A stretch of 43,730 nucleotides of DNA from a virus: positions 1 to 43,730 of the IMG/VR virus record IMGVR_UViG_3300043431_000467, one strand, 5' to 3'. The notes beneath the pieces were generated by a model that was given only the letters and a program-made list of their open reading frames with translations, did not search any database and was not told the DNA's origin. The position numbers and the translations under genes are program-made. Of this stretch, positions 7,239 through 43,438 are shown one piece after another; position 1 is the stretch's first letter; each line of letters starts with the position of its first letter.

Positions 7239-7239
7239 C

Positions 7240-8229: not shown

Positions 8230-8230
8230 A

Positions 8231-14943: not shown

Positions 14944-15113
14944 GGCTGTTCTCGGAGCTGGACCGTCAGCTTGATGTATATTTCAGCGCCTAGCGCCCAG
15001 TCGAAGTGACTGTATAGCTCGTCGCGCAAACGCCAATGCAACTGCTGTTGAAACTGGGCGTGCAGCCGATCCTCGAATCCGCCGCATGCAGCTGTGGCTC
15101 TGAAGCGCTTCAC
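14940..15113 (-). CDS. QL-repeat family micro-protein, left array gene 3 (diverged)
   Basis: 57 codons if started at GTG 15113, chosen because it overlaps the upstream stop as GTGA and gives the family's usual length. The repeat is weak (DRLHAQFQQQLHWRL, DELYSHFDWAL), but the protein ends in LTVQLREQP, the signature shared with right-array members, and its end codes the conserved junction CTCCGAGAACAGCCATGA. Confidence 0.55.
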   Translation of the reverse strand: MKRFRATAACGGFEDRLHAQFQQQLHWRLRDELYSHFDWALGAEIYIKLTVQLREQP

Positions 15114-15289
15114 GTCGACACCCACTTCAGGTAGAACGACTCGCGTCCGCACCAGAGAATCCGCTGAGCGATGAGTTTTCCAGGCATCCCGCCCGAGAAA
15201 ATACAACGAACGGTTTCGCTCGACAGGTGGCGTTCGATCGCTCGTCGCAGCCTGCGTTGCCTGTTCGCTTTACGTTTTCGGTTCGTCAT
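15110..15289 (-). CDS. Small basic protein within the left array
   Basis: 59 codons from ATG 15289 to TGA 15112-15110. The N-terminus is very basic (TNRKRKANRQRRLRRAIE), which could bind nucleic acid; the rest (CIFSGGMPGKLIAQRILWCG) has no repeat. It overlaps genes on both sides (20 and 4 bases), which supports translation. Family unknown. Confidence 0.5.
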   Translation of the reverse strand: MTNRKRKANRQRRLRRAIERHLSSETVRCIFSGGMPGKLIAQRILWCGRESFYLKWVST

Positions 15290-15446
15290 GCTGTAGTGCC
15301 TGGAGCAAGGGACTGTAAAACTCCAGAAATAGTTGATTCCCTACGCTGGTATGCATCTCGTCGAACAGCCGCTGATTTATGCGGGGGTCGGCAGCATAGT
15401 GGATATCTAGTCCCATCTGCGTCCGTAGCAATTCAGGTTCGCGCAT
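15270..15446 (-). CDS. Small protein in the left array, possible diverged family member
   Basis: 58 codons from ATG 15446 to TAA 15272-15270; its start lies inside the last codons of the neighbouring repeat gene. The sequence (LLRTQMGLDIHYAADP, NQRLFDEMHTSVGNQLF, FYSPLLQALQ) has no clean QL repeat but keeps the N-Q-L and Q-A-L spacing seen in diverged members. Membership is inferred from length and position. Confidence 0.5.
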   Translation of the reverse strand: MREPELLRTQMGLDIHYAADPRINQRLFDEMHTSVGNQLFLEFYSPLLQALQHDEPKT

Positions 15447-15624
15447 GGCGTAGCTGGTCGTCGAGCTGGGCGTAGAGCTGGTCGTAGAGCTGGCCGAAGA
15501 GCTGGGTCCAGAACTGGGCGTGGAGCTGGGCGTAGAGCTGGTCGTCGAGCTGGGCGTGGAGCTGGGCGTAGAGCTGATCCCAGACCGGCTCGTTGAGCTG
15601 GCGGGCGAGCCGGTCTGGGATCAT
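15433..15624 (-). CDS. QL-repeat micro-protein, left array gene 6
   Basis: 63 codons from ATG 15624, overlapping the upstream stop (ATGA). After MIPDRLARQLNEPVW the protein is a nearly perfect tetrad repeat: DQLYAQLHAQLDDQL, YAQLHAQFWTQLFGQL, YDQLYAQLDDQL, ending RHART. A longer open frame reaches back to 15846, but that part is the antisense or other-frame shadow of the neighbouring genes. Confidence 0.7.
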   Translation of the reverse strand: MIPDRLARQLNEPVWDQLYAQLHAQLDDQLYAQLHAQFWTQLFGQLYDQLYAQLDDQLRHART

Positions 15625-22116: not shown

Positions 22117-22373
22117 TTAGACCACTCCCGTCCAAGTTGCTCGCGGACGACGCGGCGTAGACTGTCGCGCCCCCCGCCGGTCCAGCCCATTTGACGCAGC
22201 ATTTTGGTTGTGGCGTGCAGGCTGACGCGCTGCGAATAGCTTGTAGTCTTGTCGTTGTGCTCGATGATAGCCTTCACCTCCTTGCACATCGCGGCTGAGA
22301 GCGGGTACACGCACTGGCGCTTGGCGTCGATCAGGTTTGCGGCTTTGATCTTGGTCTTCAGTTGTGCTGCCAC
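22113..22373 (-). CDS. Small protein between polymerase and phosphatase, possible HTH
   Basis: 86 codons if started at GTG 22373, which has AAGGAG about ten bases upstream inside the end of the polymerase gene; the longer frame would overlap much more. Sequence (IKAANLIDAKRQCVYPL, QRVSLHATTKMLRQMGWTG) has a helix-turn-helix-like C-terminal half. No family recognised. Confidence 0.55.
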   Translation of the reverse strand: MAAQLKTKIKAANLIDAKRQCVYPLSAAMCKEVKAIIEHNDKTTSYSQRVSLHATTKMLRQMGWTGGGRDSLRRVVREQLGREWSK

Positions 22374-24469
22374 AGTTGTAACTCTCCTTGTGCGTTGCGG
22401 ACGGTCTTCGCGTCCTTGGACCACACCATCGTCAAAACGGGCTCGGCGGGTGTCGGGTAGTCCGGTGTGAACTTGTTCAGTTCCTCTTCCATGATGTGCG
22501 CCAGTCGCCGGGTTGCCGCTGCGAGCCCCGCAAGCGGCCCCTCGATCACGATCTCATCGTGCACGAAAGCTACGATACGGTATCCAAATAGCGCACTCCC
22601 TGGTACGTAGCACTCCATAGCTACCCGCGCCAGCGCTTCGAGCGCGCCATCGGCAAGTAGCCCCTGGAAGAAGGTGTTACATGCGGCCGAGTACGTGCAC
22701 CCGCCGCGCCACCGCAGGCTGCGCACCTGCTGAATCAGGATCCGCTTGTCGCCCTCTTGCATGCTCGAGACGAGTGCAAAGAGTTGTGCGACCTCTGGGA
22801 AGCTCTGATCGTACAGCTTCATCAGACGATCGGCCTCCGCCTCACTGAATTTGACGCCGTAGCTCTTGCGCGCGGTTACGACCATTTTGCGCTTGCCCAT
22901 GCCGCCGGGCCGGCCGAACACGATCGGCTTTGCGGACTGACGCCACGCCTTGACTTCTTTGTCGCCGGCCTTGTATCGAACGAGAGCATCTTCGTAGGTG
23001 GTGCCCTTGCCGTAGGCCAGCGCACCGAACCAGAGGTGCACGTCGATCCCAGCGTTGAGCATGTCGCCGAGCTTCGAGTACCCGAACTTGTCCCGGCAGA
23101 CTTGCGCCAGCGTGTGCAGCTCGCCTGCGCTGTAGTCCGCAAGGCCGAACCCGTGACCGGGTCTTGGCTTGATGCACGACCGCGCATCGGATACTCGGTC
23201 GAACAGCGCGATCAGCACGCGGCGCAGCTCATCGTCGGGGCTGCGCGGGAAGTTCTGAATCTGCACCCCTACAAGATCTCGGGGTAGTGGCTTCTTGCTG
23301 ACGCCCTTGCTTGAGCTGGTTCGCCCCGTATCGAGAAGCGAGTCGTAGCGAGGCTGCAGCGGAAGGTCTACGCCCTTCTCGAGATCGTCGAGTCTTGGTA
23401 GCAGGTTCTTGATCCGGCCGTAGTCCGCCCACTCGATCAAGGTCTCGTCGCCCGACAAGATGCAGGAGTCGCGGTCCGTGGATACGATCGCCCAGTTCGG
23501 CACAAGCTCGGGCTGAAAGGCCGCGAGCGCCTTCTTGCTCTTGCTCTTCGACTTTGTTTCGACTTTCGGCAGATCTTCAAAGCGGCAGTGCGTCTGCCCC
23601 TCGCGCCGCTCGACCTCAGTCTTGGTCAGCGGAACAGGTCGGCCGGTGTCGAAGTAGCGGCGCGCCAGGCGCTCCGCGGCCGCGCGCATGTTCTTGCTGC
23701 CGCTCGGCTTGATCAGCCCTGTGTCGACGAGCGGGGGGTGGTACGCCCCTTTGATGTCCTTCCAGCCGCCCTTCCACAGCTCGTACATGCGCTCTTCGGT
23801 GGCGCGCTTGAGTTCCTTGACCCGGACCGAGTCCGTGCGCACCCCGTAGCAGTGCGCCAGACGCAAGGCCAGGTCGTACAGGGCCCGGCGGGGGGCCTGC
23901 TTGCCGAGGATGGGCGAGCCATGCTCCTCCTGCCAGCGCTGGCAGATGCGCCGCTGCGACCGTAAAATCAACCAGGGGCCGCGCGCGTCGTCGCGCGGAT
24001 AGTTGACGGCGTCCTCCGGCCACAGCCGCATCGGCAAGGAATCAAGCTCCCTGTACTTCAGGCGCCAAGGGTTCTGCTTGTCGATCGCAAACGGCAGCCG
24101 GTGCCGCTCGGCCAGCACATCAAGGGCGTAGCCCCGCTGCTTACGAAACTTCAGCTCGCCGAAGGCGATGTCGATCAACTTCTGATTCAGCAGAATGTCT
24201 TCGACCTGATCGTCAAAATACAGGTCGAAGATCGGCTCGATGAAGTCCGGCTCGAACGCCATCAAGCAGGTAGCATCGAAAGCTGTCGTCGTGTTGACCA
24301 GCTTCTGCCCAGAGCGCAGCAGATGCCAGACGCGTTCGAGTCCGCCACCGCCGCACGAGAACTGTTCGACTTCGCCGACCTTGCCGTCGGTCGACCAAGA
24401 GATGCACACCGGACGAGGGGCAGCGACGGGCCGCTCAATCAGGTATGTCTCAAGGTCGAACGATATCAC
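22358..24469 (-). CDS. Family A DNA polymerase with 3'-5' exonuclease domain
   Basis: 703 codons from GTG 24469, which overlaps the exonuclease stop as GTGA; the frame extends further upstream only in antisense-like sequence. ISFDLET at residues 2-8 is Exo I (DxE). The polymerase motifs follow: A (GLADYSAGELHTLAQV, about residue 443), B (Lys-rich KPIVFGRPGGMGKRK to the SYGVKF helix, about 515) and C (AFVHDEIVIEG, about 634). It is the replicative polymerase of the phage, acting with the helicases and primase of the same operon. Confidence 0.92.
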   Translation of the reverse strand: MISFDLETYLIERPVAAPRPVCISWSTDGKVGEVEQFSCGGGGLERVWHLLRSGQKLVNTTTAFDATCLMAFEPDFIEPIFDLYFDDQVEDILLNQKLIDIAFGELKFRKQRGYALDVLAERHRLPFAIDKQNPWRLKYRELDSLPMRLWPEDAVNYPRDDARGPWLILRSQRRICQRWQEEHGSPILGKQAPRRALYDLALRLAHCYGVRTDSVRVKELKRATEERMYELWKGGWKDIKGAYHPPLVDTGLIKPSGSKNMRAAAERLARRYFDTGRPVPLTKTEVERREGQTHCRFEDLPKVETKSKSKSKKALAAFQPELVPNWAIVSTDRDSCILSGDETLIEWADYGRIKNLLPRLDDLEKGVDLPLQPRYDSLLDTGRTSSSKGVSKKPLPRDLVGVQIQNFPRSPDDELRRVLIALFDRVSDARSCIKPRPGHGFGLADYSAGELHTLAQVCRDKFGYSKLGDMLNAGIDVHLWFGALAYGKGTTYEDALVRYKAGDKEVKAWRQSAKPIVFGRPGGMGKRKMVVTARKSYGVKFSEAEADRLMKLYDQSFPEVAQLFALVSSMQEGDKRILIQQVRSLRWRGGCTYSAACNTFFQGLLADGALEALARVAMECYVPGSALFGYRIVAFVHDEIVIEGPLAGLAAATRRLAHIMEEELNKFTPDYPTPAEPVLTMVWSKDAKTVRNAQGELQLWQHN

Positions 24470-26130: not shown

Positions 26131-26158
26131 GTTATCGCACATAGGTGTTCTATGTCAA
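26131..26158 (-). promoter_or_regulatory. Promoter with perfect -35, overlapping the helicase stop codon
   Basis: On the minus strand TTGACA (-35, 26153-26158), 16-base spacer, GATAAC (-10, 26131-26136). Within the spacer is an inverted repeat CATAG-AACAC-CTATG, a possible operator. It would drive the ssDNA-binding/exonuclease/polymerase group independently of the upstream helicase. Confidence 0.5.
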
Positions 26159-28056
26159 GACTCTTCCACATCATCCGACTCATCTTCGTCAGAATTGTGG
26201 CGAAGTGCGGCTTCCGCGGTCGCATCTTTGGGGCCGGCCCACATCTCGTCTCCGAGCTGGACCCACCTCTCGACCGCGGAGAAATCCCGTATGTCGGCGT
26301 AGCACAGTTTTTGCGCCTGCTGCAGCGTATCCCGCGACATGTCGGCCCGCCCGAGGGCGTAGAGCATGGATTGGTACGCTTCATCGCAGACCATCCAGGT
26401 TTCCGCGGTCACGATCGGGGCCGGCTGTCCGTCGCGGTGGGTGCGGCCGAGACTTTGCTCCCACAAGCTGTTTGTGGACATGGGGGTAGCGTACGCGTTG
26501 GCGTGCCACTGGTACTGCAGGTTGAGCCCGTAGGAGCAGGACTTGACCGATGCGATCGCCGGGCCTTTGCGGTTCCGGTCTTCGAGCGGACGCCCCTGGG
26601 AGTCGAGGGATTTCTGACGGTGGTAGGCGATACCAGTGGCCCTTTCAAGCGCGTCCCCGAGGGCGGGGAACTCCACCCAGAGCAGCCCCTTGGTGTTTTC
26701 GAGCCAACGTGCGCAGTGCTGCACCATGGAGTCGTCGAGCCACCTCGGCTTCACTTCGTACACGTACGTAGGGCGGATGGCCTCCCACTGCTTCCAGGCT
26801 GCAACGAGATCTGGTTCTTTCTTGTCGAAGGCGCCTGCCATGATGTTTTTGACTACGTGTCCGGGGGTGCTGAGTCTGTAGCGCCCTTGGACGTCGTCAC
26901 GCAGGCGCCAGTAGTGCTTGCGTACGAGCAACCACTCTGTGGGCGGGGCGGGGTCCCAGTAGTTGAAAAACCCACACTGCAGCTCGCGACAGTGCCGCCA
27001 CAAATCCATAGGCGTCTCGAAGGGCATGCCGTCCGGGGTGCAGCGGGTCTCGCGCATCTTGATGATGGACTCGGCGATGATGGCAGGGGCCTTCAAGGGT
27101 TGCGCGACGATGTGCAGTTTGTTCTCGGGGCGGGATTCACCTGTGGTGATGACTCCGGGTGTCTCGACGAGACGGCGGCCGAAGGCCAAGCGGCCGCGCT
27201 GGACTTCGGGCAGGTTTGGATCGATGTCGGGGGAGAGCCGGATCAGCGCGCCGGGCTGCCAACGGCTTTCGGGCGTGACCTTCTCGTCGAGCGCGGCGCA
27301 CCACTGGTTCTTCTCGTCGAAGCTGCGCGGAACCGGGGCGTTCTCCCCGAGCGCTAGGCGGGAGATGTGCCAGTACTGGTTAAGGCTGGTGTCCGTGGGC
27401 GTGCCGCACATCGCGATCACGATGAGCTTCTCGCCGAAGTACGCCTCTTCCTTGCGCACCTTCGTGACGTAGTGGGCGAGGTTGTGCCAGGTGCCGCTGT
27501 TCGTGTTTTTGCAGGCGTCGGACTCGTCCAGGATGATCAGATCGGGCTTGAGGTCGCCCAAGATCTTGCCGTCGTAGTCGCGGGCAAGTTGAGAGTAGGT
27601 GTTCATCGACATCGACTGGATGCGCCAATGTCGGCTTGCCTCCTCGAGCGCACCCCATGTCGATTTCAAGACGCCCGCCTTCGTGAAGTAGATGGGCCGT
27701 TTGCCCATGTCAAGGCCCACGATCTGCGCGGCGATGGGCGACAGGCCGGCAATCAAGGTCTTGCCTGCGCCAACCCGCGCGCAAACGAAGGCTCCGCGCA
27801 GGCGGACGAGCTCCTCGAGCGCCAGCACCTGAACCGGACGCATTCGTTGCCCGCCGTGCGGGGTCCGGAATGCATCCGAGAACAGCTCAACCATCTGATC
27901 AAGATTGCCGAGCTCTTGCCACACTCGCCGAGGCAGATCCCGAATCCGACGAAGTTCGTCAGTCTCTCTGACGCAGTTGACTGTTTTACCTCCGGGGGAG
28001 AACAGTCTACCTGTCCGCAGCTGGAACTGCTCGGCGAGTGTGAGGGAAGTGGCCAT
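26155..28056 (-). CDS. SNF2-like superfamily 2 helicase
   Basis: 633 codons from ATG 28056. Motif I is ARVGAGKT (about residue 95), motif II LIILDESDACKN (about 178), motif III MCGTP, and motif VI QSLGRTHRDGQ (about 538), preceded by SCSYGLNLQYQ. The 'QxxGRxxRxGQ' form and the DESD box are typical of phage SNF2-like translocases encoded next to family A polymerases. It would unwind or remodel DNA during replication or recombination. Confidence 0.85.
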   Translation of the reverse strand: MATSLTLAEQFQLRTGRLFSPGGKTVNCVRETDELRRIRDLPRRVWQELGNLDQMVELFSDAFRTPHGGQRMRPVQVLALEELVRLRGAFVCARVGAGKTLIAGLSPIAAQIVGLDMGKRPIYFTKAGVLKSTWGALEEASRHWRIQSMSMNTYSQLARDYDGKILGDLKPDLIILDESDACKNTNSGTWHNLAHYVTKVRKEEAYFGEKLIVIAMCGTPTDTSLNQYWHISRLALGENAPVPRSFDEKNQWCAALDEKVTPESRWQPGALIRLSPDIDPNLPEVQRGRLAFGRRLVETPGVITTGESRPENKLHIVAQPLKAPAIIAESIIKMRETRCTPDGMPFETPMDLWRHCRELQCGFFNYWDPAPPTEWLLVRKHYWRLRDDVQGRYRLSTPGHVVKNIMAGAFDKKEPDLVAAWKQWEAIRPTYVYEVKPRWLDDSMVQHCARWLENTKGLLWVEFPALGDALERATGIAYHRQKSLDSQGRPLEDRNRKGPAIASVKSCSYGLNLQYQWHANAYATPMSTNSLWEQSLGRTHRDGQPAPIVTAETWMVCDEAYQSMLYALGRADMSRDTLQQAQKLCYADIRDFSAVERWVQLGDEMWAGPKDATAEAALRHNSDEDESDDVEES

Positions 28057-28157: not shown

Positions 28158-28240
28158 CTCATGAGGCGGGCTACGACCCAGGCCGTCAGCGGTATGCTAG
28201 CTAGGCACACCGCTACAGCAACTACATCCGGCCAGCTCAT
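28154..28240 (-). CDS. Tiny membrane protein, 28 residues
   Basis: From ATG 28240 (ATGA overlap with the nuclease gene) to TAG 28156-28154. Sequence WPDVVAVAVVCLASIPLTAW is one membrane span followed by a short basic end. Small size keeps confidence low, but the exact overlap is typical of this operon. Confidence 0.4.
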   Translation of the reverse strand: MSWPDVVAVAVCLASIPLTAWVVARLMR

Positions 28241-29430
28241 GCCTCGAGCTCCTTCGCTGCTGCGATCAGAGCTTCTCCGATTCGCCGCGCGAAGATTGCG
28301 GCCATGTGCTTCCCCTTGGGGGTGCCGGCGCTGTAGGTCTCGATAGCTAGAACTGCGTGCTCACGGCTGCTGTTCACGTTACCTGCGCCGTTGGCCGATT
28401 GTTGTTTGAATTCGATCTCGGTCTGCTTCGATGCTGCTTCCGGGGGGTTGATTAGATCTGGCTTCGATGCTGCGATCAGCGGCGCTTCAGCCTGTGCCTT
28501 GGCACCTGTTGCTTCAGCCTTCTTTTTTGCTGCGAGTGCTGCGAGACGATCGGATACACTGAGTTCGGCCATGGGATTGGGCTCCTTCTTCTTGGTTTGA
28601 ACGTGGAACAGTTTCTGGGTAGGTTTCAGGTTGCAGACAGGAACGTAGTGACAGTCCCTGCCGTACTTGTGACAGCGTCGCGGGTTGTAGTCAAGGCTCA
28701 GCGGATGAGGTTGCGTTGCCTCGAGCTCTACGACTCGCTGTGCTTGTGGGTGTACGATCGTCCCGAAGGCGTCTTCAATCTCGCCGCGGGAGAGCGTGAT
28801 GTAGGATGGTTTGGCCGTGAAGGGCGGGCCTTGGCTAGCGATGACCTGCCCGGACAGCTTGTCCTTGAACTTGGTCTGCTTGTAGCCGTAGTACAACCAT
28901 AACAGGTCGGCTTCGGAGTCGCCAGTGTGTGCTAGATACCAGGCCGCGTAGAGTACAGCCTGTACGTTGTCGAGAAAGCCGTGGCGTTCTGCGTACCCTT
29001 CTCCGGTCGTGCGCTTCTGCCACAAGCCATATGCTGTCGGGTTCGAACTGGTCTTGTGGTCGCCGACATACATCCGCCCGCGGCGCGGCGGTGGGTGTAG
29101 GGCTAGGTCGAAGTTCGCGAACAGATCGAGGAACAGCCCATACGAGATCCCAGAAACCTCGAGAAGCTTTTCCCCCTCCACGCCGCCGGTTTTCGGGGGC
29201 GGCAGGTATGGCAAGCCCTGCAGGAACATCGCCCCGCCCACAGTCAAATGGTCCGGCTTGTGCCCGTGCTCAAGGTAGGCTTGTGCTGCAGCGTGCAGCT
29301 CGATGCCAAGGCTTGCAGCTAGCCCCTTCGGCTCCTTGTCGAAGCCTAGCGCCTTGCCCCAGTAGTGGAACGCGCCTAGCCGCTCGCACTCTGAGAACTT
29401 GTCGATTTTGGTAGCAGATTGGAGGGTCAT
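28237..29430 (-). CDS. PD-(D/E)XK nuclease with C-terminal extension (Cas4/RecB-like)
   Basis: 397 codons from ATG 29430. KIDKFSECERLGAFHYW starts the nuclease, GIELHAAAQAYLE is the conserved helix, and MYVGDHKTSS (about residue 123) is the D-x-K motif of RecB-type nucleases. CHKYGRDCHYVPVC near residues 252-267 offers three cysteines that could bind an iron-sulphur cluster, as in Cas4; a fourth is not obvious. The last about 110 residues form a separate Ala/Lys-rich helical domain. It acts with the flanking helicase and primase. Confidence 0.75.
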   Translation of the reverse strand: MTLQSATKIDKFSECERLGAFHYWGKALGFDKEPKGLAASLGIELHAAAQAYLEHGHKPDHLTVGGAMFLQGLPYLPPPKTGGVEGEKLLEVSGISYGLFLDLFANFDLALHPPPRRGRMYVGDHKTSSNPTAYGLWQKRTTGEGYAERHGFLDNVQAVLYAAWYLAHTGDSEADLLWLYYGYKQTKFKDKLSGQVIASQGPPFTAKPSYITLSRGEIEDAFGTIVHPQAQRVVELEATQPHPLSLDYNPRRCHKYGRDCHYVPVCNLKPTQKLFHVQTKKKEPNPMAELSVSDRLAALAAKKKAEATGAKAQAEAPLIAASKPDLINPPEAASKQTEIEFKQQSANGAGNVNSSREHAVLAIETYSAGTPKGKHMAAIFARRIGEALIAAAKELEA

Positions 29431-29497: not shown

Positions 29498-31798
29498 TCA
29501 GTTTGCCCCGGCGCTCAGGAAGGCGCCGCCTTGGCTTACAATAGCTTCCAGTTCCGCAAGTGTCAACTCCCAAGAGTTCTCTTGGCCCCACTGTGCGAGA
29601 TCTTCGAGCGACACCGCATAGAGCCCGCGCTGCTTGCGCGTGCCGAGCTCCTTCATCACGTTCGCAATGGCGGGCAAGGAGAGTTGGCGCTCTTTGTCGA
29701 GGTAGCGCGCATACTTGTCGTAGATGAACCGCGGGTTGATCAGCAGCTCCCCCCGCCCGAGCACGAACATTTGCCCGGCGCCCTCGTTCGCGAGGTGCGG
29801 AGCGTGCAAGAACGACATCAGCCACTGGCACACAAGACTGCGATCGCGGCTGGCGATGCGCATGTGCCGGTGAAGCTCCGAGTCGCGCCCCTGCACCCAG
29901 AGCCGGTCGTTCTGTTTGCTCTCGACAACGCGGTTCTCCTCGAGCCACAGAATGTACTGTGCCAGACGCGCGGGTGGGAAGAACGGGGCTCGGCTCGGTG
30001 GCAGCCGGTAGAACAGCAAGCGCTCGCAGATGGCGTCGACGTCATCGCGGCCGACAGTCTCAGACGAGTTGTTGAACAAGTGCAGGTTGTTCATGGCGAA
30101 CACGAACCGCAGTGATCCTTCCATCTTGCTCGTGGGCAGGAACTTGCGGTTCAGGGTGATGGTGCGGGCGGCCACGAGTTGGCGCAGCTTGCCGCTGTCC
30201 TTGCGGAAGCGCTCAGGGACGGTGTCGTCGGCCAGAACCACAGGGCACTCCATGAGCGCGTCGTTGAACGACTCGCCGAGGCTATCCATGTCGGTGGGCG
30301 GGGCGCCCCAGATCGCAGCAATCCCCTCCGCAAGCATGGTTTTGCCGACGCCTGGGGCGCCGCAGAGGTAAAGTGCGGCTGTAGCTTTGTCGAGCTTCGG
30401 GGCCGTGGCGAGCCAGTCAAGGAGTGTGTCATCCCCCCACGATCGCAGCCACGCGTCGATCTCGTAGTCGTAGTTCGGGACGAGATCCAGACGTCGCGGC
30501 GCGATGGCGTACGTCAGGATGTGCCCGTTCACGGTGCTGGTTCGGGCCGAAAGGCTCGCGCGAACGATGTCGACTGCGCGGCCGTAGTCCTGGAGCAGGG
30601 TCTTGAGAGTGCGGTTGTGGACGTCCCCATCTTTGTTGACCTTGCGAAGCTGCAACTTGAATGGCTGTTCTGCGGGCAGCAGCTTCTGAAACGCCGACGT
30701 CTCGCCCGAGTCGATCGTGCCTACGTTGACGTAGTTCCCCTCATAGAACACGTACAGACTGTTCTGGTGGCGGACGAGCAGCTGCTTCTGTAGGTAGTCC
30801 GGTTTCGGAACGCCCTGCTCGACGCAGAAGGTAGACAGATCGTCGATGTTGTACGGCCCTTCGCGCCCGAGCTGGTACATGCGGATGGGGTCCTCCCCCA
30901 TCAACTTCTCGGTGATTTCTCTGCGGGCGCGCTCGAGCTTCTCGGTGAATGTGGTGCCGTCTGAGTGGCGGCAGCCCGGCAGATGGAGCTGCGGCATGCA
31001 GACTTCAACTATGGTCGCGTTCTCGAGCCCCTGCGCGCGGCGCGCGATGAAGGTGGCGCAAGCGTAGAGCGCTTCGTCGCGCTGGCCTTGTTCGGCGTAG
31101 GGGCCGTGTGTCTGTGCGAGCAGGCGCTGCAAGGTGGCGCGGCCGAGTACCGCCCACTCGCCGCGAGCGGAAGCTTGAGACATCTGCTCGAGTCGCTTGC
31201 GTGTCTCTTCGTGGTTCAGGCTCTGGACCACGACGCCGTTCTGCGGCTGCGTGGACTTGAGAACCTCATCAACATCCAGGGGATCAGAACCCCCCGACTT
31301 AGCCTCGAATTGTGCCGCCCCCTCAATCTGCACAGGCCAGTAGTACAGTCGGACTGGATCTTTACACTTCTGGTCGTTCGTCGAGGCAGCCAAGGTCTGC
31401 GCCATGATTGCCCAGAAGTCGGCCCACTCCCGCACGAGAACGTTGCGCGAGAGGCGCAACACGAGTCGGTAGCGCAACTGACCGTCGACCGGAACGTGGC
31501 GCCGGGTGGAGTAGTAGATGTACTGAAGTCCCCACTCTTCCACCTTATTCAGAACATCCAACCATTCCTTGGTTTTCAGGTTGTCGAAGTCCAGAACCAG
31601 ACATGAGAGCGAGATGACATCGGTGCTCGCTCTGTTGCCCTGCGCGAGTGTTGCAGGGATCCACGCCTCGAGATTGAACCCCCTCTGGTCGAACGATTTT
31701 GTCTTGGGGGTGGCGGTCAGCAGTTCGGCGAGTTGCTCCCATGTCAGATCCTGGGCGACTGCTGAAGCAGCATGGTGTTCGAGTCGCTGGATGCGCAT
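29498..31798 (-). CDS. Primase-helicase fusion (AEP-like primase plus VapE/D5-type helicase)
   Basis: 766 codons from ATG 31798, which follows an AAAGAAAGAG stretch; a TTG at 31828 is the alternative. The N-terminal 200 residues have LSCLVLDFDN and YYSTRRHVPVDGQLRYRLVL, then EWADFWAIMAQTLA, a pattern of primase-polymerase-like modules of phage origin. The C-terminal part is a VapE/DUF5906 superfamily 3-like ATPase: GAPGVGKTMLAEG (P-loop, about residue 481), CPVVLADDT (Walker B, about 519), and FVFAMNNLHLF (sensor). It is probably the replication initiator or helicase-primase. Confidence 0.8.
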   Translation of the reverse strand: MRIQRLEHHAASAVAQDLTWEQLAELLTATPKTKSFDQRGFNLEAWIPATLAQGNRASTDVISLSCLVLDFDNLKTKEWLDVLNKVEEWGLQYIYYSTRRHVPVDGQLRYRLVLRLSRNVLVREWADFWAIMAQTLAASTNDQKCKDPVRLYYWPVQIEGAAQFEAKSGGSDPLDVDEVLKSTQPQNGVVVQSLNHEETRKRLEQMSQASARGEWAVLGRATLQRLLAQTHGPYAEQGQRDEALYACATFIARRAQGLENATIVEVCMPQLHLPGCRHSDGTTFTEKLERARREITEKLMGEDPIRMYQLGREGPYNIDDLSTFCVEQGVPKPDYLQKQLLVRHQNSLYVFYEGNYVNVGTIDSGETSAFQKLLPAEQPFKLQLRKVNKDGDVHNRTLKTLLQDYGRAVDIVRASLSARTSTVNGHILTYAIAPRRLDLVPNYDYEIDAWLRSWGDDTLLDWLATAPKLDKATAALYLCGAPGVGKTMLAEGIAAIWGAPPTDMDSLGESFNDALMECPVVLADDTVPERFRKDSGKLRQLVAARTITLNRKFLPTSKMEGSLRFVFAMNNLHLFNNSSETVGRDDVDAICERLLFYRLPPSRAPFFPPARLAQYILWLEENRVVESKQNDRLWVQGRDSELHRHMRIASRDRSLVCQWLMSFLHAPHLANEGAGQMFVLGRGELLINPRFIYDKYARYLDKERQLSLPAIANVMKELGTRKQRGLYAVSLEDLAQWGQENSWELTLAELEAIVSQGGAFLSAGAN

Positions 31799-32544
31799 GT
31801 AGACTCTTTCTTTAGCAGCTTCCGCCAAGTGCGCAAAGTAGTCGTACTGCAGTGCACTTGTGCACAGATGCGTCGCACGGTCAATCCCTTCTTGACCAGG
31901 GCTAGGGCTGCCTCCCGTTTTGCTTCAAGGTTTTGGGCGTATGCGGAGGTAGGCTGCCCTCTTCGTATCCAGTGATGAATTGTACTGGGTGCGCGGTTCA
32001 TGGTTTCGGCGATGTTCTGCGGTCGCATGCCTTGCGCGAGCAATCTGCACATCTCGTTGTAGTCGTCCACTGTAGCTTTTCGTGCTGTGTTTGTGGGGTA
32101 CGCTCGAGGCGTATTTGACACCAACTGGCATATGGTTGAGTATCCTACATTGTAGGCAAGAGCTACTTCACGCGCGCTGGCGTCGCCGCTCAGAACGATC
32201 TCGATTGCTACGAGTTTTTGTAGTTCAGTCAGTCTGCGCATGCCCACTCGTAGGTGTCCGTTCCACCTGCCGTCAACATGCAGCCACTTTCGTATGACGC
32301 GGGCTGAGTGCCCAATCTTCTGGGCTGCTTCGACTGTTGACGCCCCAGAAAGAACCATCTCTATGGCTTGTTTCTTGGTCTGTGGGCTTGTTTTGTTTCT
32401 CGACCACCTGCCGTCCATACGCAGCCACTTTCGTACGATTTGTACTGAGTATCCAACCTCCCGGGCTGCTTCGATTGTTGACGCCCCGGCCAAGACCATC
32501 TCTACGGCCTGCTTCTTGACCCCCGGGCCTGCTCGGTTTTTCAT
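31744..32544 (-). CDS. Protein with five tandem helix-turn-helix repeats
   Basis: 266 codons from ATG 32544. Five HTH-like units are visible at about residues 10-41, 57-88, 109-143, 160-194 and 209-244. Units 1 and 2 are near copies (KKQAVEMVLAGASTIEAA, KKQAIEMVLSGASTVEAA), each ending VRKWL/IRKWL + DGRW. Unit 3 (LVAIEIVLSGDASAREVA) matches the first unit of the gene at 33747. These are transposase-type HTHs without any catalytic domain. It lies next to the 13-bp and 29-bp repeat arrays and may bind them; this is inference. It overlaps the primase start. Confidence 0.65.
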   Translation of the reverse strand: MKNRAGPGVKKQAVEMVLAGASTIEAAREVGYSVQIVRKWLRMDGRWSRNKTSPQTKKQAIEMVLSGASTVEAAQKIGHSARVIRKWLHVDGRWNGHLRVGMRRLTELQKLVAIEIVLSGDASAREVALAYNVGYSTICQLVSNTPRAYPTNTARKATVDDYNEMCRLLAQGMRPQNIAETMNRAPSTIHHWIRRGQPTSAYAQNLEAKREAALALVKKGLTVRRICAQVHCSTTTLRTWRKLLKKESTCASSDSNTMLLQQSPRI

Positions 32545-32768
32545 CCGGGTACCCCCCGGCCTGCTCGGTTTTTCATAGTGGGGTCAGTTCCGGGCCCGGC
32601 CTGGTGCCCGACAGCAAGAGTGGCAACTATAAAATATAGCTGGTTTGACAGTTGGGGGAAGAGTGAGTCCTCGACTTCGGAGATTATGCACTTGCGCACT
32701 TCGAGGTTCAATAGGAACTGCAGATGCCGGGCCTCGCAGAAGAGTTTGTCATCATGTATCGGGATCAT
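32541..32768 (-). CDS. Possible small protein of 75 residues
   Basis: From ATG 32768 to TGA 32543-32541, overlapping the five-HTH gene by ATGA. A longer open frame runs through the 13-bp repeats and is not credible. The sequence has DKLFCEARHLQFLLNLE, KCIISEVEDSLFPQLSNQL and a hydrophobic YFIVATLAVG; its last residues come from a 33-base duplication of the next gene's start. Weak evidence. Confidence 0.35.
   Translation of the reverse strand: MIPIHDDKLFCEARHLQFLLNLEVRKCIISEVEDSLFPQLSNQLYFIVATLAVGHQAGPGTDPTMKNRAGRGVPG
32545..32577 (-). repeat. Duplicated start region of the five-HTH gene
   Basis: On the minus strand ATGAAAAACCGAGCAGGC occurs at 32577 and again at 32544, exactly 33 bases apart. 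The downstream copy is the real start; the upstream copy is in the same frame as the small ORF ending at 32541. Confidence 0.75.
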
Positions 32769-32819
32769 AGCTGGGTGCTTGTGCTGTGGCTCTGTGACTG
32801 GTGCAACCTTAGGTAGACC

Positions 32820-32930
32820 TTCGTAGTAAACCTTCGTAGTAAACCTTCGTAGTAAACCTTCGTAGTAAACCTTCGTAGTAAACCTTCGTAGTAAACCTTC
32901 GTAGTAAACCTTCGTAGTAAACCTTCGTAC
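32820..32930. repeat. 13-bp tandem repeat, eight perfect copies plus seven bases (iterons)
   Basis: Unit TTCGTAGTAAACC on the plus strand, copies starting at 32820, 32833, 32846, 32859, 32872, 32885, 32898 and 32911, then TTCGTAC. Thirteen bases is not a codon multiple, so the array is non-coding. Iterated AT-richer repeats beside replication genes are typical of origins that bind an initiator. Confidence 0.8.
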
Positions 32931-32959
32931 TGCCCCAGGCACACCCCCCATCCCGCCCC

Positions 32960-33082
32960 ACATGTGGTGTCCTGTAGGTGGTGCACCTACATGTGGTGTC
33001 CTGTAGGTGGTACACCTACATGTGGTGTCCTGTAGGTGGTACACCTACATATGGTGTCCTGTAGGTGGTGCGCCTACATGTG
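32960..33082. repeat. 29-bp tandem repeat, four copies with internal dyad
   Basis: Copies begin at 32960, 32989, 33018 and 33047, with a partial fifth (ACATGTG). Each junction forms the inverted repeat TGTAGGTG-(3)-CACCTACA. Copies differ at one or two positions (GTGCACC, GTACACC). The dyad is the same core as the palindromes at 38843-38864 and 38907-38934. Confidence 0.8.
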
Positions 33083-33089
33083 CCTCGTG

Positions 33090-33332
33090 CTACTTGCGGC
33101 CGCGGCCGCGCTTGGGGGGCACGGTGGCTGCGACGCGCGCTTGCTCTGCCAGGGCCCGGCGCTCGGCAGCGGCGGCGTTGCGGCGCGCAGTGTAGCGGGC
33201 GAAAGACGCGTGCTCCTCTGCCTCGGTCGGCTCGACCGGAAGCGTGGGTGGGCGCGGAAGCGACGGTCGGCACGCCGCGAGCAGGGTTTCGTCGGCGGGG
33301 CATGGCAGGGTCGATGCGTTGTTCAGGCTCAT
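33090..33332 (-). CDS. Small basic-tailed unknown protein
   Basis: 80 codons from ATG 33332, with GGGAG nine bases upstream. A GTG at 33347 is in frame and lies seven bases after a -10 hexamer, so an alternative leaderless start exists. Pro-rich N-terminal half, then a helix (SFARYTARRNAAAAERRAL) and a basic end PPKRGRGRK like DNA-binding tails. Unknown. Confidence 0.55.
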   Translation of the reverse strand: MSLNNASTLPCPADETLLAACRPSLPRPPTLPVEPTEAEEHASFARYTARRNAAAAERRALAEQARVAATVPPKRGRGRK

Positions 33333-33746: not shown

Positions 33747-34121
33747 CTACATCTTGGCGAGCCAGCGGGTGACTGCGGACCGCGCGCGGCCGAGCTGTCT
33801 CGAGATCGCGCTCAAGCTCGCGCCGCCTTCGTGTAGCTCTCGGGCCAGCACCAGTTCAGCCGCGCTTGGGCCGATCTTGCGCCAGGGAGGCCGTGCTCGC
33901 GGTGTGCGAGCTACCAGGCCTTGTACTGTCGAGCGGCTCACCTGGTAGACGTCGGCGACTGCGCTAGCGCTAGCCTCGCCGCTGAGCACGATCTCGATCG
34001 CCACCAGGCGTTGGAGCGGTGACAGGCGATGGCGCCTAGGCACTTCAGACCCAACTCCACCCAGCGGCCCACACCCAGGCGTGTAGGAATCCGGCTTCAT
34101 CGTAGCACGCGACTCGGCCAT
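33747..34121 (-). CDS. Two-HTH protein, paralogue of the five-HTH protein
   Basis: 124 codons from ATG 34121, or 117 from ATG 34100. HTH 1 (LVAIEIVLSGEASASAVAD, then VSRSTVQGLVARTPRA) is nearly the same as HTH 3 of the gene at 31744; HTH 2 (SLSAISRQLGRARSAVTRWL) is a second one. There is no catalytic domain. The start overlaps the upstream gene's end by about 55-77 bases. Confidence 0.65.
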   Translation of the reverse strand: MAESRATMKPDSYTPGCGPLGGVGSEVPRRHRLSPLQRLVAIEIVLSGEASASAVADVYQVSRSTVQGLVARTPRARPPWRKIGPSAAELVLARELHEGGASLSAISRQLGRARSAVTRWLAKM

Positions 34122-37235: not shown

Positions 37236-38183
37236 CTACTCGTCGGGTAGGCGCACAAGATCGCGAGTGGAGTTCCAGTGGTCCGGGGTGGGCGTGGTCA
37301 GCCAGTGCTCATTGCCGCCTCTACGGAACGCCAGGAGCTTGCGTGCGATGGGGACCGTCACCCAGTGGCGGTTCCAGACGTAGGCCCACAGGTAGGCGCA
37401 GAAGCGGGCCAAGGGGTCGGAGCAGTGGTGCATGACCCTACGTTGTAGGGTCATTATCTCCTTCGGGGGCATGGAGGTGTGAAATCGCGCGAGCGGTTCG
37501 TCGGACGAAGTACCTAGGAGGCGGCGGCGGGGGGCGACACGCCATGCGGGGTAGGATTCTTCCGGGAAGTAGGAGCTGGTGAGGCGTAGGCCGGTGTAGT
37601 CGCCTGGCGGGATCTGTGGCATGTGGCCGCCGGTCTCGGCGGGGATTCCCGTGCGCTCGTAGGCTTCGAGCACACGGCGGCGGTGGTCGCGCGCGACTCT
37701 GCGGCGCCACAGTTTGGCGACGCGGTTTTCCTCAGGTGTGAGTTCGCCGCGCCACTTCTGTTCGTAGAATTGTGGGCCTGGGTAGTACCCCCGGCGCCAG
37801 CGGTCCGGGCGGGGGCGCTCACCATCCCACAGTCCCACCCAGCCCAGGATCTGGTGCTGCAGGCGTAGGTCGTATGCCTGCGGTACGTGGTCTGTCCAGG
37901 GGCAGGGTAGGCGTTGTGGGGTGCCGGGTATGGGTGCGTCGCAGCATAGGTCGCGACACTGCATGTCTGCTCTAAGCTGATTGTGCAGATAGCGTACAGC
38001 CAGGTCAATGAGGTCGGCGCCGTTCTCCGGCCAGCGGTCGGGTTGGGTCCGGTTGTGCGCGAGCCACGCACGCGTGCGCGCTATCTGCGCGGCTGGGGCG
38101 AGGATGTCGAGCTTCCGCGAGTTGTGCCACCTAGCACCGACAGGGTCTTGTTTCCGTTTATACACCATTTCCAGATTCTCCAT
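37236..38183 (-). CDS. Unknown protein, 315 residues
   Basis: From ATG 38183; ATG 38168 has GGAG upstream and may be the true start. Trp/Arg/Pro-rich sequence with no domain I can name: WPENGADLIDLAVRYLHN, CRDLCCDAPIPG, RRRVARDHRRRVLEAYERTG, MHHCSDPLARFCAYLWAYVW. The first large gene of the leftward operon, hence perhaps an early function. Cysteine pairs near residue 100 may bind a metal. Confidence 0.65.
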   Translation of the reverse strand: MENLEMVYKRKQDPVGARWHNSRKLDILAPAAQIARTRAWLAHNRTQPDRWPENGADLIDLAVRYLHNQLRADMQCRDLCCDAPIPGTPQRLPCPWTDHVPQAYDLRLQHQILGWVGLWDGERPRPDRWRRGYYPGPQFYEQKWRGELTPEENRVAKLWRRRVARDHRRRVLEAYERTGIPAETGGHMPQIPPGDYTGLRLTSSYFPEESYPAWRVAPRRRLLGTSSDEPLARFHTSMPPKEIMTLQRRVMHHCSDPLARFCAYLWAYVWNRHWVTVPIARKLLAFRRGGNEHWLTTPTPDHWNSTRDLVRLPDE

Positions 38184-38185
38184 GT

Positions 38186-38404
38186 TCAGCCCACTTCGAC
38201 CTCTAGATCTAGATCAATTTTATGGGCACCTTTTTTCGCGTGGCCCCTGTGCAGACATAGGCTACAACGATGTACCATTGTACGTTCTAAGAAACGTCCG
38301 CGCAAGGACCACGCGAAAAAAGGGTGGGAGTGGGTGAAAAACGCGTACTTGCTTTCGACTACGTACGTAGTACGCATTTTGCTTACACCGTCACTGTAAT
38401 TCAC
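38186..38404 (-). CDS. Possible small Cys/His protein at the operon start
   Basis: 72 codons from GTG 38404 (GGGGG upstream); its TGA lies two bases before ATG 38183, which supports a real gene. The C-terminal MVHRCSLCLHRGHAKKG has a C-x2-C-x2-H-x2-H spacing suggestive of a zinc site or an HNH-like remnant. The coding part contains a 15-bp inverted repeat, so the sequence may be a control element instead. Confidence 0.4.
   Translation of the reverse strand: MNYSDGVSKMRTTYVVESKYAFFTHSHPFFAWSLRGRFLERTMVHRCSLCLHRGHAKKGAHKIDLDLEVEVG
38229..38323. repeat. 15-bp inverted repeat, 65-base spacing
   Basis: CCTTTTTTCGCGTGG at 38229-38243 and its exact complement at 38309-38323. The spacer holds GTAC-CATT-GTAC. 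Could form a long RNA stem or be a paired protein site. Confidence 0.65.
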
Positions 38405-38546
38405 GCACCCCCAGCAGAAATTCCACCCCTAGCTCCGCTCCCACACATGCCCCTACCAAACACACCCTAGTTCCAGATATTCCACAATCTCCACATTTGC
38501 CCACATCTCCAGACTTGACTTTCGCTTCGAAAATTGTTACGCTCAC
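38391..38546 (-). CDS. Possible small zinc-ribbon-like protein, 51 residues
   Basis: From GTG 38546 to TGA 38393-38391, overlapping the next ORF by 14 bases. KCGDCGISGTRVCLVGAC has four cysteines in C-x2-C-x7-C-x4-C spacing. No convincing ribosome site. Composition is less GC-rich than the rest. It would be the first gene of the leftward operon. Confidence 0.3.
   Translation of the reverse strand: MSVTIFEAKVKSGDVGKCGDCGISGTRVCLVGACVGAELGVEFLLGVRELQ
38515..38543 (+). promoter_or_regulatory. Plus-strand sigma70-like promoter candidate
   Basis: TTGACT, 17-base spacer, TACGCT. It would start a transcript of about 570 bases through the palindromic region towards the right QL array. Confidence 0.35.
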
Positions 38547-38842
38547 TCTGCGCCTACGCTTAGGCGATGAGCGTAAAAGACACACGTCGGGGGGAGTCGG
38601 GGGTGTAAGGTCTTTCCCAGCATTCGTGTACGCACCTACATCCGGCACCAGTACCGGGACAAGTGAGCGTATGTAGTACGTGTGTACGGGAGTAGTTGGC
38701 ACGCGCGTATGCGGTACGTAGTAGTTGGCATGGTACGTATGTAGTACACATGCCACGTGTAGTTGGCATGCAGATGTAGTCTACATGTAGTTGGCATGCA
38801 CCAGTGCCGGTGCTACACCTACATGTGGGGCTAGCGGTGGCG

Positions 38843-38864
38843 CTACACCTACATGTAGGTGTAG
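38843..38864. repeat. 22-bp perfect palindrome CTACACCTACA/TGTAGGTGTAG
   Basis: Centre between 38853 and 38854. Followed by GTGCGCTCGAGCTGGGCTAG, the same sequence that follows the second palindrome 67 bases on. Confidence 0.75.
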
Positions 38865-38906
38865 TGCGCTCGAGCTGGGCTAGTGCCAGACCTGTGCGTA
38901 GGGGTG

Positions 38907-38934
38907 GCACTACACCTACATGTAGGTGTAGTGC
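38907..38934. repeat. 28-bp perfect palindrome, second copy
   Basis: Extends the core of the first to GCACTACACCTACA and its complement. Core CACCTACA/TGTAGGTG also forms the dyads of the 29-bp repeats at 32960-33082. Confidence 0.75.
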
Positions 38935-39078
38935 GCTCGAGCTGGGCTAGTACCATATGTGGGATGGTGTGTGCGGTGTATGCCCCCGGGCCTGGGTGTG
39001 GGGGTGGGTGTGGGACTGCGCACATGTCAGATGTGCAGAAATTTTTTTTGAAAAATTCACCAATCCCAGCCCTAGACC

Positions 39079-39107
39079 TTGCCATACCTGCGAAAACAAG
39101 TCAAACT
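39079..39107 (+). promoter_or_regulatory. Promoter candidate of the right QL array, leaderless geometry
   Basis: TTGCCA (39079-39084), 17-base spacer, CAAACT (39102-39107), six bases, ATG 39114. The -10 is weak, but spacing equals that of three other promoters in the window. Confidence 0.45.
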
Positions 39108-39113
39108 GTATTC

Positions 39114-39284
39114 ATGCTACTTTCCGACGCCTGGCAGCTCTACGCCCAGCTCTACGCCCAGCTCCACACCCAGCTCTCCGTCCAGCTCTACGGCCAGCTC
39201 TACGGCCAGCGCCACGCCCTCTCCGTCCAGCTCTACGGCCAGCTCTACGACCAGCTCAACGCCCAGCTCCTAAAACAGCCATGA
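39114..39284 (+). CDS. QL-repeat micro-protein, right array gene 1
   Basis: 56 codons from ATG 39114. After LLSDAW it is a run of four-residue units: QLYAQLYAQLHTQLSVQL, YGQLYGQRHALSVQLYG, QLYDQLNAQLLKQP. CAGCTC codons dominate. No ribosome site; the upstream promoter geometry suggests a leaderless mRNA. It overlaps gene 2 by ATGA. Confidence 0.7.
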   Translation: MLLSDAWQLYAQLYAQLHTQLSVQLYGQLYGQRHALSVQLYGQLYDQLNAQLLKQP

Positions 39285-39460
39285 ACCTATTCGCCCAGAA
39301 CCTAAGAATGATAAGAGTTCTAGCCGAACGGCTAGATCCTGATAATTTGTACTGGGAGCTGCACCATCAAGTCGATCTGCCGCTGTGTGATGTACTGTAC
39401 AGGCGACTCTACCATGAACTGTATTTTTCGATCGAGGATCAGCTCCGAGAACAGCGATGA
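39281..39460 (+). CDS. Diverged QL-family micro-protein, right array gene 2
   Basis: 59 codons. NLFAQNLRMIRVLAERLD, LYWELHHQVDLPLCDVLY, RRLYHELYFSIEDQLREQR. The tetrad spacing survives in places but the DNA is not repetitive, so this member shows protein-level divergence under apparent constraint. Shares the LREQ ending. Confidence 0.7.
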   Translation: MNLFAQNLRMIRVLAERLDPDNLYWELHHQVDLPLCDVLYRRLYHELYFSIEDQLREQR

Positions 39461-39624
39461 ACGCGCACCAACTCGACGACCAGCTCTTCGACCAGCTCGG
39501 CGCCCAACTCCACGCCCAGCTCCGCACCCATCTCTCCAACCAGCTTCTCTACGCCCAGCTCTACGCCCAGCTCTACTCCCAACTCCACGCCCAGCTCCAC
39601 GCCGGGCTCCGAGAACAGACATGA
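39457..39624 (+). CDS. QL-repeat micro-protein, right array gene 3
   Basis: 55 codons. NAHQLDDQLFDQLGAQLHAQ, LRTHLSNQLLYAQLYAQ, LYSQLHAQLHAGLREQT. MNAH start is shared with gene 6 and with the proximal gene of the left array. Confidence 0.7.
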   Translation: MNAHQLDDQLFDQLGAQLHAQLRTHLSNQLLYAQLYAQLYSQLHAQLHAGLREQT

Positions 39625-39729
39625 ACACAAGTCAGCTCCACGCCCAGCTCTCCGCCCAGCTCGACGCCCAGCTCCACGCCCAGCTCTGGGCCCAGCTCTA
39701 CGCCGAGCTCTACGCCCAACTCTACGCCC
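39591..39729 (+). repeat. 139-bp duplication, copy 1
   Basis: Matches 40086-40224 with two mismatches by my reading (within 39651-39653). Spans the end of gene 3 and the first half of gene 4. Confidence 0.85.
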
Positions 39730-39809
39730 AACTCTACGACCAGCTCCACGACCAGCTCTACGCCCAGCTCCACGACCAGCTCTGCGATCAGCTCCGAGAA
39801 CAGCCATGA
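39621..39809 (+). CDS. QL-repeat micro-protein, right array gene 4
   Basis: 62 codons, the most regular member: NTSQLHAQLSAQLDAQLHAQ, LWAQLYAELYAQLYAQL, YDQLHDQLYAQLHDQL, ending LREQP. Its first half is a near copy of gene 7 (139-base duplication). Confidence 0.72.
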   Translation: MNTSQLHAQLSAQLDAQLHAQLWAQLYAELYAQLYAQLYDQLHDQLYAQLHDQLCDQLREQP

Positions 39810-39934
39810 ATACAGACAAGCTCTGCGCCCGGCTCGACGGCCAGCTCTACGCCCAGCTCTACGCCCAGCTCTCCGCCCGGCTCGCCGACCAGCTCTACGC
39901 CCGGCTCGCCGACCAGCTCCGAGAACAGCCATGA
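39806..39934 (+). CDS. QL-repeat micro-protein, right array gene 5
   Basis: 42 codons, the shortest. NTDKLCARLDGQLYAQLYAQ, LSARLADQLYARLADQL, REQP. ATGA overlaps on both sides. Confidence 0.68.
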   Translation: MNTDKLCARLDGQLYAQLYAQLSARLADQLYARLADQLREQP

Positions 39935-40119
39935 ACGCGCACCGGCTCGAAGCCCAACTCTGCAACCTGCTCGAAGTCGAGCTCGCGATCGAACTCTCTT
40001 GGCGGATTCACGTCGAACTCTGGGCCAAGCTCTGCCCGCAACTCTATGACGAGCACGGCGCCCAACTGCGCGCCCAGCTCGAGGTCCAGCTCCACGCCGG
40101 GCTCCGAGAACAGACATGA
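39931..40119 (+). CDS. Diverged QL-family micro-protein, right array gene 6
   Basis: 62 codons. NAHRLEAQLCNLLEVELA, IELSWRIHVELWAKLCPQLY, then AQLRAQLEVQLHAGLREQT. The centre is diverged, the ends keep the family pattern. Confidence 0.68.
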   Translation: MNAHRLEAQLCNLLEVELAIELSWRIHVELWAKLCPQLYDEHGAQLRAQLEVQLHAGLREQT

Positions 40120-40224
40120 ACACAAGTCAGCTCCACGCCCAGCTCGACGCCCAGCTCGACGCCCAGCTCCACGCCCAGCTCTGGGCCCAGCTCTACGCCG
40201 AGCTCTACGCCCAACTCTACGCCC
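40086..40224 (+). repeat. 139-bp duplication, copy 2
   Basis: Same as 39591-39729, offset 495 bases; spans the end of gene 6 and the first half of gene 7, so genes 4-6 look like a duplicated block boundary. Confidence 0.85.
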
Positions 40225-40316
40225 GGCTCTGGGCCCAGTTCTACGAACATCTCAGTAATTTCTACTACCCCACCGTCGAGTTCCGCCAACCCCCAATCGT
40301 TGCACGCCGCGCTTGA
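40116..40316 (+). CDS. QL-repeat micro-protein, right array gene 7
   Basis: 66 codons. Begins as gene 4 (NTSQLHAQLDAQLDAQ), then LWAQFYEHLSNFYYP and a non-repeat end REFRQP-like tail (VEFRQPPIVARRA). It lacks LREQ because its 3' part runs antisense into the large terminase gene for 65 bases; perhaps a truncated copy. Confidence 0.65.
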   Translation: MNTSQLHAQLDAQLDAQLHAQLWAQLYAELYAQLYARLWAQFYEHLSNFYYPTVEFRQPPIVARRA

Positions 40317-42876: not shown

Positions 42877-43438
42877 CGTCGTCGCCCTGCCAGACCTTCA
42901 CCTTCGGCGTGGCGTCGAGCGGCGGCGGCGCCTGCAGTTTGTCGAGCTCCCCGAAGTGCTTCAGAAGCAGCATCAAGATCTGCGACTTGTCGACGAACGT
43001 GTACGACCAGCGCCCCTTCGCGAAGTTTACGCTCTTGATCGCCGCGCGTAGCGGCGCCGGAAGCTCATCCGGCGGCAACACGCCCCGTTCCTGGATCTCC
43101 CCGTACTCCGAGTCCTTGGTGGTGAGCTGGCCGATCAAGTCCTTGATGTCCCACCCGGCCGCGAGCTGCCACAGCGCCTGCAGGCAGCCGTCGCGGATGT
43201 CGCGATGCCTATCTCTGCGCTCGGCATGCACCCACGCGATGTAGCGCTGTACGGGGCGATTCTTGAGAATCCCCTCGCCGAACGCCGCCGCGCCTCTGTC
43301 GCTGACCGAGTACCCCGCCGCGCGCACGGCAGCAGCGATCGACATGTTCGGGTCGGATAGGAAGTGATCGCAGAAAGCGCGCTCCTGCGGCTTCAGATCG
43401 GCGGTGATGATCGCCAGATCGTCTTGCGGGGCGTCCAT
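42869..43438 (-). CDS. terS: Terminase small subunit
   Basis: 189 codons from ATG 43438 (shares a base with the upstream TGA). LKPQERAFCDHFLSDPN, then AAAVRAAGYSVSDRGAAAFG and NRPVQRYIAWVHAE are the Terminase_2 DNA-binding domain pattern. The C-terminal half is helical with a terminal acidic QGDDDE. It recognises packaging sites and activates TerL, encoded directly downstream. Confidence 0.85.
   Translation of the reverse strand: MDAPQDDLAIITADLKPQERAFCDHFLSDPNMSIAAAVRAAGYSVSDRGAAAFGEGILKNRPVQRYIAWVHAERRDRHRDIRDGCLQALWQLAAGWDIKDLIGQLTTKDSEYGEIQERGVLPPDELPAPLRAAIKSVNFAKGRWSYTFVDKSQILMLLLKHFGELDKLQAPPPLDATPKVKVWQGDDDE

Follow-up and report, generated by a model that had tools for sequence, protein, structure and literature searches.

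A candidate iteron-type replication-origin region beside the primase-helicase operon of an uncultured myovirus-like phage

Tandem direct repeats near an initiator gene are known from iteron plasmids and from the lambda ori, and plasmid iterons are typically spaced about 20-22 bp apart. The satellite phage P4 carries a primase-helicase fusion together with iterons, and its two cis regions, ori and crr, share a motif. The alpha protein of P4 and its cognate ori site are mentioned in the available part of PMC6092414. According to PMC7581432, the origins recognised by SaPI Rep helicases are iteron sites adjacent to the helicase's own gene, and binding by SCCmec Cch2 needs direct repeats, not inverted repeats. 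PMC6092414 and PMC7581432 place SaPI/PICI origins 3' of rep, their iterons lying on either side of an AT-rich stretch. For pRN1, PMC4234260 describes an operon in which a small DNA-binding repressor is followed by the PrimPol-helicase, and a candidate origin located 3' of the gene that forms a stem-loop and has no iterons.

The DNA analysed here, referred to as the window, makes up a complete IMG/VR virus record (43,730 bases) and has no end repeats. Myovirus-like tail genes are on its plus strand, replication genes on its minus strand and terminase genes at its right end. The proteins scanned included none from head genes, so the window is probably a partial genome. An earlier note had proposed a candidate origin at 32820-33082, and one close relative of the window, G001 (IMG/VR contig 3300017792_000002, 55,369 bp; the corresponding locus is L013), was found for comparison. 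The repeats and their immediate surroundings are as follows.

31744..32544, minus strand: gene of a five-HTH protein (266 aa, phrog_664-like)
32519..32576, minus strand: third conserved repeat, two copies of AAAAACCGAGCAGGCC(G/C)GGGGGT, overlapping the start of the five-HTH gene
32813..32929, minus strand: 13-bp iteron array, nine copies reading GTAAACCTTCGTA on the plus strand and GGTTTACTACGAA on the primase-sense strand
32930..32959, no strand: 30-bp spacer between the arrays, 80% GC
32960..33082, minus strand: 29-bp array (TRF: period 29, 4.2 copies, 94% matches), primase-sense unit ACATGTAGGTGTACCACCTACAGGACACC
33090..33332, minus strand: 80-aa basic small protein ending in KRGRGRK, without family match, bounding the non-coding gap upstream
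33747-34121, minus strand: gene of a two-HTH protein paralogous to the five-HTH one (41% identical across 90 aa), on the far side of the arrays

Both kinds of repeat described in the earlier note are real, although its account can be refined. Eight 13-bp copies are perfect (32826-32929, or 32820-32923 in the register of that note), and a ninth with one mismatch, at 32813-32825, had been overlooked, as had the third repeat, AGGCCGGGGGGT. The perfect identity attributed to the copies holds for these eight, whereas the 29-bp copies are near-perfect. The second array follows the first a little less directly than stated, the GC-rich spacer lying between them. The 13-mers are directional and without dyad. 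Every 29-bp unit has a 19-bp dyad with 8-bp arms, TGTAGGTGnnnCACCTACA, perfect in three copies and with one mismatch in the fourth, so the internal dyads had been correctly noticed. Exact matches to the 13-mer number eight in the window, all inside the array; with up to three mismatches there are 14 against 4.46 expected, a count reached by none of 100 shuffles. With 39% GC, the 13-mer array has the lowest GC of the whole window at the 100- and 200-bp scale. A sequence resembling the 13-mer, GGTGTACCACCTA or a close variant, is found inside each 29-bp unit. Shuffled 13-mers equal the observed match in 5.0% of trials for the window and in 0.35% for the first G001 unit, a chosen one, and the joint pattern was built from both repeats; a binder common to the two units is suggested rather than demonstrated by this likeness.

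The arrays occupy a gap between the 33090-33332 gene and the five-HTH gene, upstream of the primase-helicase. The codon-usage gene call, which also missed the HTH gene and so is not decisive by itself, places no gene between 33090 and the HTH and primase genes. In both the window and G001, all three primase-sense frames run into stops within the 29-bp array. A coding role of the arrays was ruled out by these stops together with the lack of a conserved frame, and the region is non-coding, as had been stated. The primase-helicase lies roughly 1 kb downstream, beyond the HTH gene. From it onward, the leftward operon consists of the following genes.

29498..31828, minus strand: primase-helicase with an N-terminal AEP/PrimPol-like domain and a DUF5906 / SF3-like AAA+ helicase
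28237..29430, minus strand: exonuclease-like protein, same operon
26155..28056, minus strand: DEAD/SNF2-type helicase, same operon
22358..24409 (longest ORF to 24739), minus strand: family A DNA polymerase

The primase-helicase is separated from the next gene on its 3' side by 67 bp. Its DUF5906 match is above the Pfam cut-off (37.6 vs 27.6 bits). A structural model built from eight sequences, with pTM 0.32, aligns with the AEP domain of the cyanophage S-2L PrimPol with Z 9.3 and the SF3 helicases papilloma E1, AAV Rep, phage NrS-1 and SaPI5 primase-helicase with Z 6-7.3, the values of 6-7 for the helicase part being near those of unrelated models by the structure tool's own note. From the structure search the C-terminal part is uncertain; for an SF3-type helicase two lines agree, Pfam DUF5906 and the predicted fold. 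The five HTH units reported earlier are borne out by PF13384 matches in five stretches of the protein and by a fold model with five tri-helical units (mean pLDDT 50, used for helix counts only). A 141-bp tandem duplication (81% matching) is present at 32263-32518 within this gene and doubles the first HTH, and the number of HTH units seems to be evolving by duplication. The primase-helicase is most likely the initiator or loader, and the five-HTH protein may be a regulator or an accessory to the initiator. The repeats could be bound by either class of protein.

The locus shares with the SaPI/PICI pri-rep-ori and SCCmec Cch2 systems, as the available parts of the sources describe them, an AEP primase with an SF3/D5-type helicase and short non-coding direct repeats beside the helicase gene. 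Unlike SaPI/PICI origins, which lie immediately 3' of rep, the window arrays lie 5' of the primase-helicase with the HTH gene intervening. They also comprise two unit lengths, 13 and 29 bp, their spacer is 80% GC instead of an AT-rich flanked region, and the window belongs to a tailed phage encoding its own PolA and a second helicase. The pRN1 operon likewise has a small DNA-binding protein gene ahead of the PrimPol-helicase, whereas its candidate origin, in the available description, is a 3' stem-loop and the window arrays are iterons 5' of the gene. Tandem direct repeats near the candidate initiator gene, and the local AT-richness of the window array, are shared with iteron plasmids and the lambda ori, but the window spacings of 13 and 29 bp are not multiples of the helical phase and no RepA-type initiator was found in the window. 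Nor does the window contain an exact DnaA box (TTWTNCACA); two sites with one mismatch are near the arrays, and L013 5300-6300 has no such box. The combination of a primase-helicase with iterons resembles that of P4, and so may a half-site common to the 29-bp array and a distant region of the window.

38813..38931, no strand: second non-coding region sharing the half-site ACACCTACAT / ATGTAGGTGT with the 29-bp array, with palindromes within 38840-38867 and 38907-38934

This region may possibly be a second cis element of the same system, a weak suggestion from the shared half-site. In contrast to the P4 arrangement, its motif was sought in G001 and is absent there, and the likeness to alpha is one of architecture. 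The kind of site is well known, and the sequence itself is new.

Several searches were carried out for relatives, by a procedure that may leave out records very near the window. Alignment of the second helicase with its MW202816 homologue led to 25 loci, L013 among them. MW202816 was rejected as a model, having a different replicative helicase (DnaB plus primase) and no comparable array. A scan for paired 13-mers through the whole viral contig collection matched a single contig, again G001. The primase alignment search returned G001 and one weak locus (L049), and a TerL scan three TerL relatives. No close relative came from primase or PolA queries in viral contigs, and no match from exact array patterns in viral contigs, from blastn of the repeat region against phages and plasmids or from the primase query in genome contigs. 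With tblastn of the primase and HTH proteins against phages there was none at 1e-5, and relaxed limits gave weak primase-domain matches only.

The proteins of G001 are 44% (primase), 43% (exonuclease), 51% (helicase) and 56% (PolA) identical to those of the window, in the same gene order. Upstream of its primase the order of the window is kept: 29-bp-type units, 13-mers, then an HTH gene, here of 84 aa. Five 29-bp-type units, some with 6- or 9-bp insertions, are at L013 5518-5690, and three near-perfect copies and one degenerate copy of the 13-mer GGTTTACYACGAA at L013 5733-5802, with spacings of 13, 20 and 24. The third repeat, AGGCCGGGGGGT, is found at L013 6085-6260, after the HTH gene, whereas in the window it overlaps the HTH gene start. 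Exact 13-mer matches within G001 are restricted to the repeat locus. The orthologous 0.8-kb blocks have 134 11-mers in common, compared with a maximum of 4 for any of 49 other pairs of upstream blocks and with 13 for the entire primase gene. Their longest match is 19 nt (maximum 17, mean 9.4 in 500 dinucleotide shuffles) and they share 50 runs of 9-mers (maximum 12 in 500 dinucleotide shuffles). The repeats thus retain their sequence, order and place although most of the coding DNA of the two genomes has diverged. The earlier note had listed a lack of repeat conservation in relatives among the outcomes that would count against an origin, and in one of one close relative both order and position are retained. 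It had also taken the perfect identity of the copies as a sign of active maintenance; constraint is indeed indicated, but by another route. Copy identity is weak evidence of constraint, because recent slippage or duplication can also give identical tandem copies, and the G001 copies are imperfect. It is the conservation across genomes that we read as real evidence of constraint.

The five-HTH protein was sought in G001 and not found. Because it is undetected where the repeats are kept, it appears not to be needed for their retention. The 84-aa HTH protein at the same position of G001 shares with it only the broad phrog_664 profile (E 7e-4), and no BLAST similarity was detected between the two. 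Among more distant primase relatives (23-27% identical, alignment A5), none of six has a repeat excess in the approximately 1.2 kb upstream of the primase, as judged by repeated 9-mers against the 95th percentile of their own locus. This test is crude: L013 exceeds its threshold (105 vs 65), whereas the window does not (156 vs 183), its background being raised by repeats in coding sequence. Within the reach of this comparison, the arrays are confined to the close pair.

How the block might function was considered under several readings. Chance, or functionless tandem repeats expanded by replication slippage, is suggested by the near-identical window copies, by the different copy numbers (9 vs 3-4) and by the many tandem repeats, mostly coding, in other parts of the genome. 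The recurrence of both the 13-mer and the 29-bp unit at the orthologous position of G001, at 44-56% protein identity, contradicts this explanation, which is extremely improbable. The 29-bp units could instead act as hairpins in the leader of the leftward transcript, through attenuation, processing or antitermination. Each window unit does have its 8-bp dyad, and the window array folds at -52.1 kcal/mol, moderately better than its shuffles (z -2.26), of which 3 in 200 do as well. In G001, however, the fold is weaker (z -1.65) and the dyad is broken in four of five units, where 2-4 of 8 pairs remain (7 of 8 in the first unit), while the surrounding sequence is kept. The window has no Rfam family match and the 13-mers have no dyad at all, so that a role in RNA is very unlikely. 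The broken G001 dyads in kept sequence and the directional 13-mers without dyad favour recognition of the repeats as DNA sequence, by a DNA-binding protein, rather than as RNA hairpins. With its tandem iterons next to a multi-HTH protein, the block resembles parS/parC-like arrays. It could serve a plasmid-like or extrachromosomal phase, as a centromere-like partition site or as a nucleoprotein anchor to which the multi-HTH protein binds. Phages with a repeat-bearing parS next to repA provide a precedent in the available part of PMC7157519. Here the neighbours are replication genes and no ParA-like ATPase is present among the window proteins scanned, small ORFs being covered in part, which leaves partition with little probability.

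Repression without any origin role has more in its favour and is the main rival to an origin. The HTH protein would bind the arrays cooperatively, as a multi-site operator, and autoregulate the leftward replication operon. In both genomes the arrays are separated from the primase by an HTH gene, which encodes five HTH units in the window and the 84-aa protein in G001, and the five-HTH and two-HTH paralogues flank the arrays. The half-site ACACCTACAT occurs again in the non-coding region further upstream at 38.8 kb, and CACCTACAT has one additional copy at each of 33744 and 38633, like dispersed regulatory sites. The last 13-mer of G001 overlaps the start codon of its HTH gene, a position that fits an operator as well as an origin. 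On the other hand, at least 12 sites over 260 bp are kept as an array, beyond typical operator need, the G001 motif is restricted to one locus, and the HTH proteins are without BLAST-detectable homology although the 13-mer is nearly invariant. An exclusively regulatory site is on balance unlikely, and a dual role, as origin and as operator for the replication operon, is likely.

From the sequence comparison, the block at 32.5-33.1 kb is probably the iteron-type replication-origin region of this phage. Multiple direct repeats lie in non-coding DNA and are linked to a candidate initiator gene, the primase-helicase downstream, as in iteron origins. The initiator would most likely be the conserved PrimPol-SF3 primase-helicase itself, or else a phrog_664-type HTH protein recruiting it, and would recognise as iterons both the GGTTTACYACGAA repeats and the 29-bp units related to them. 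The resulting nucleoprotein complex could melt the adjacent AT-richer DNA, the 13-mer array being the most AT-rich 100-200 bp of the window. The SF3 helicase would be loaded at the melted DNA, and the primase would then allow synthesis to begin, carried out by the family A polymerase that the phage itself encodes. This nucleoprotein complex would probably repress the adjoining leftward HTH-primase-exonuclease-helicase-polymerase operon as well. The GC minimum is found at the array in the window (0.38 over 100 bp), and the G001 block is not a minimum. A switch in GC skew at the repeats, proposed earlier as a check, is absent, the cumulative extremes being at 8.4 and 39.1 kb in the window and at 10.3 and 29.9 kb in G001. 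The origin first proposed from the letters is thus strengthened by the conservation of order and place in G001, and weakened by the missing skew switch, by the five-HTH protein undetected in G001 and by the six of six distant relatives without repeat excess.

A more elaborate, two-tier origin can be imagined, though as a whole it is doubtful. One initiator would read the core GGTkTACYACnnA at two spacings, with tight 13-mers at the melting site and the 29-bp units as a high-affinity or regulatory set. The GC-rich third repeat would mark the primase side, the 38.8 kb region would be a distant crr-like element, and the PrimPol-SF3 protein would work with a multi-HTH accessory whose HTH number varies between phages. 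For the simpler iteron-type origin, the candidate is compact, conserved and testable, with a likely initiator, in an uncultured lineage. Few mapped origins are known among tailed phages with PrimPol-SF3 replication modules. The finding suggests that iteron origins of the SaPI kind may be used by full-size myoviruses too, at the opposite flank of the helicase gene.

Other observations concern the rest of the window and its relatives. The large non-coding region at 38150-39110 contains four GTAGTTGGCATGC-like sequences and a 28-bp palindrome twice, inside 57-bp direct repeats. A homology of the window at 38.2-39.1 kb with G001 1-360, seen by eye in CCCCCGG(G)CCTGG, was dropped (BLAST E ~3). Clusters of very short ORFs (about 40-66 aa), composed almost wholly of a QLxA-type tetrapeptide repeat such as QLYAQLHAQL, are at 39114-40316 on the plus strand and at 14613-15624 on the minus strand; no such tandem array is listed in G001. 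The plus-strand ORFs at 39457-40316 overlap their neighbours by 4 nt, many QLxA ORFs end in REQP or REQT, and the 12-bp DNA repeat has opposite orientation at its two places in the window. The large terminase gene is also interrupted.

40252-42876, minus strand: TerL with an intein-like insertion (Hint and LAGLIDADG matches)

In G001 the corresponding TerL parts (residues 7-36 and 380-874) are contiguous and residues ~37-379 are absent. TerS/TerL are on the minus strand in the window (40252-43438) and on the plus strand, ahead of the tail genes, in G001 (7027-9112), an orientation change that is read as a rearrangement or inversion. In another helicase relative, an AT-rich 17-bp repeat, GAAAAAGCATGCTTGTA, is present in 2.9 copies (L014 129-178) near a (CTCCA)21 run, and is possibly a separate iteron array.
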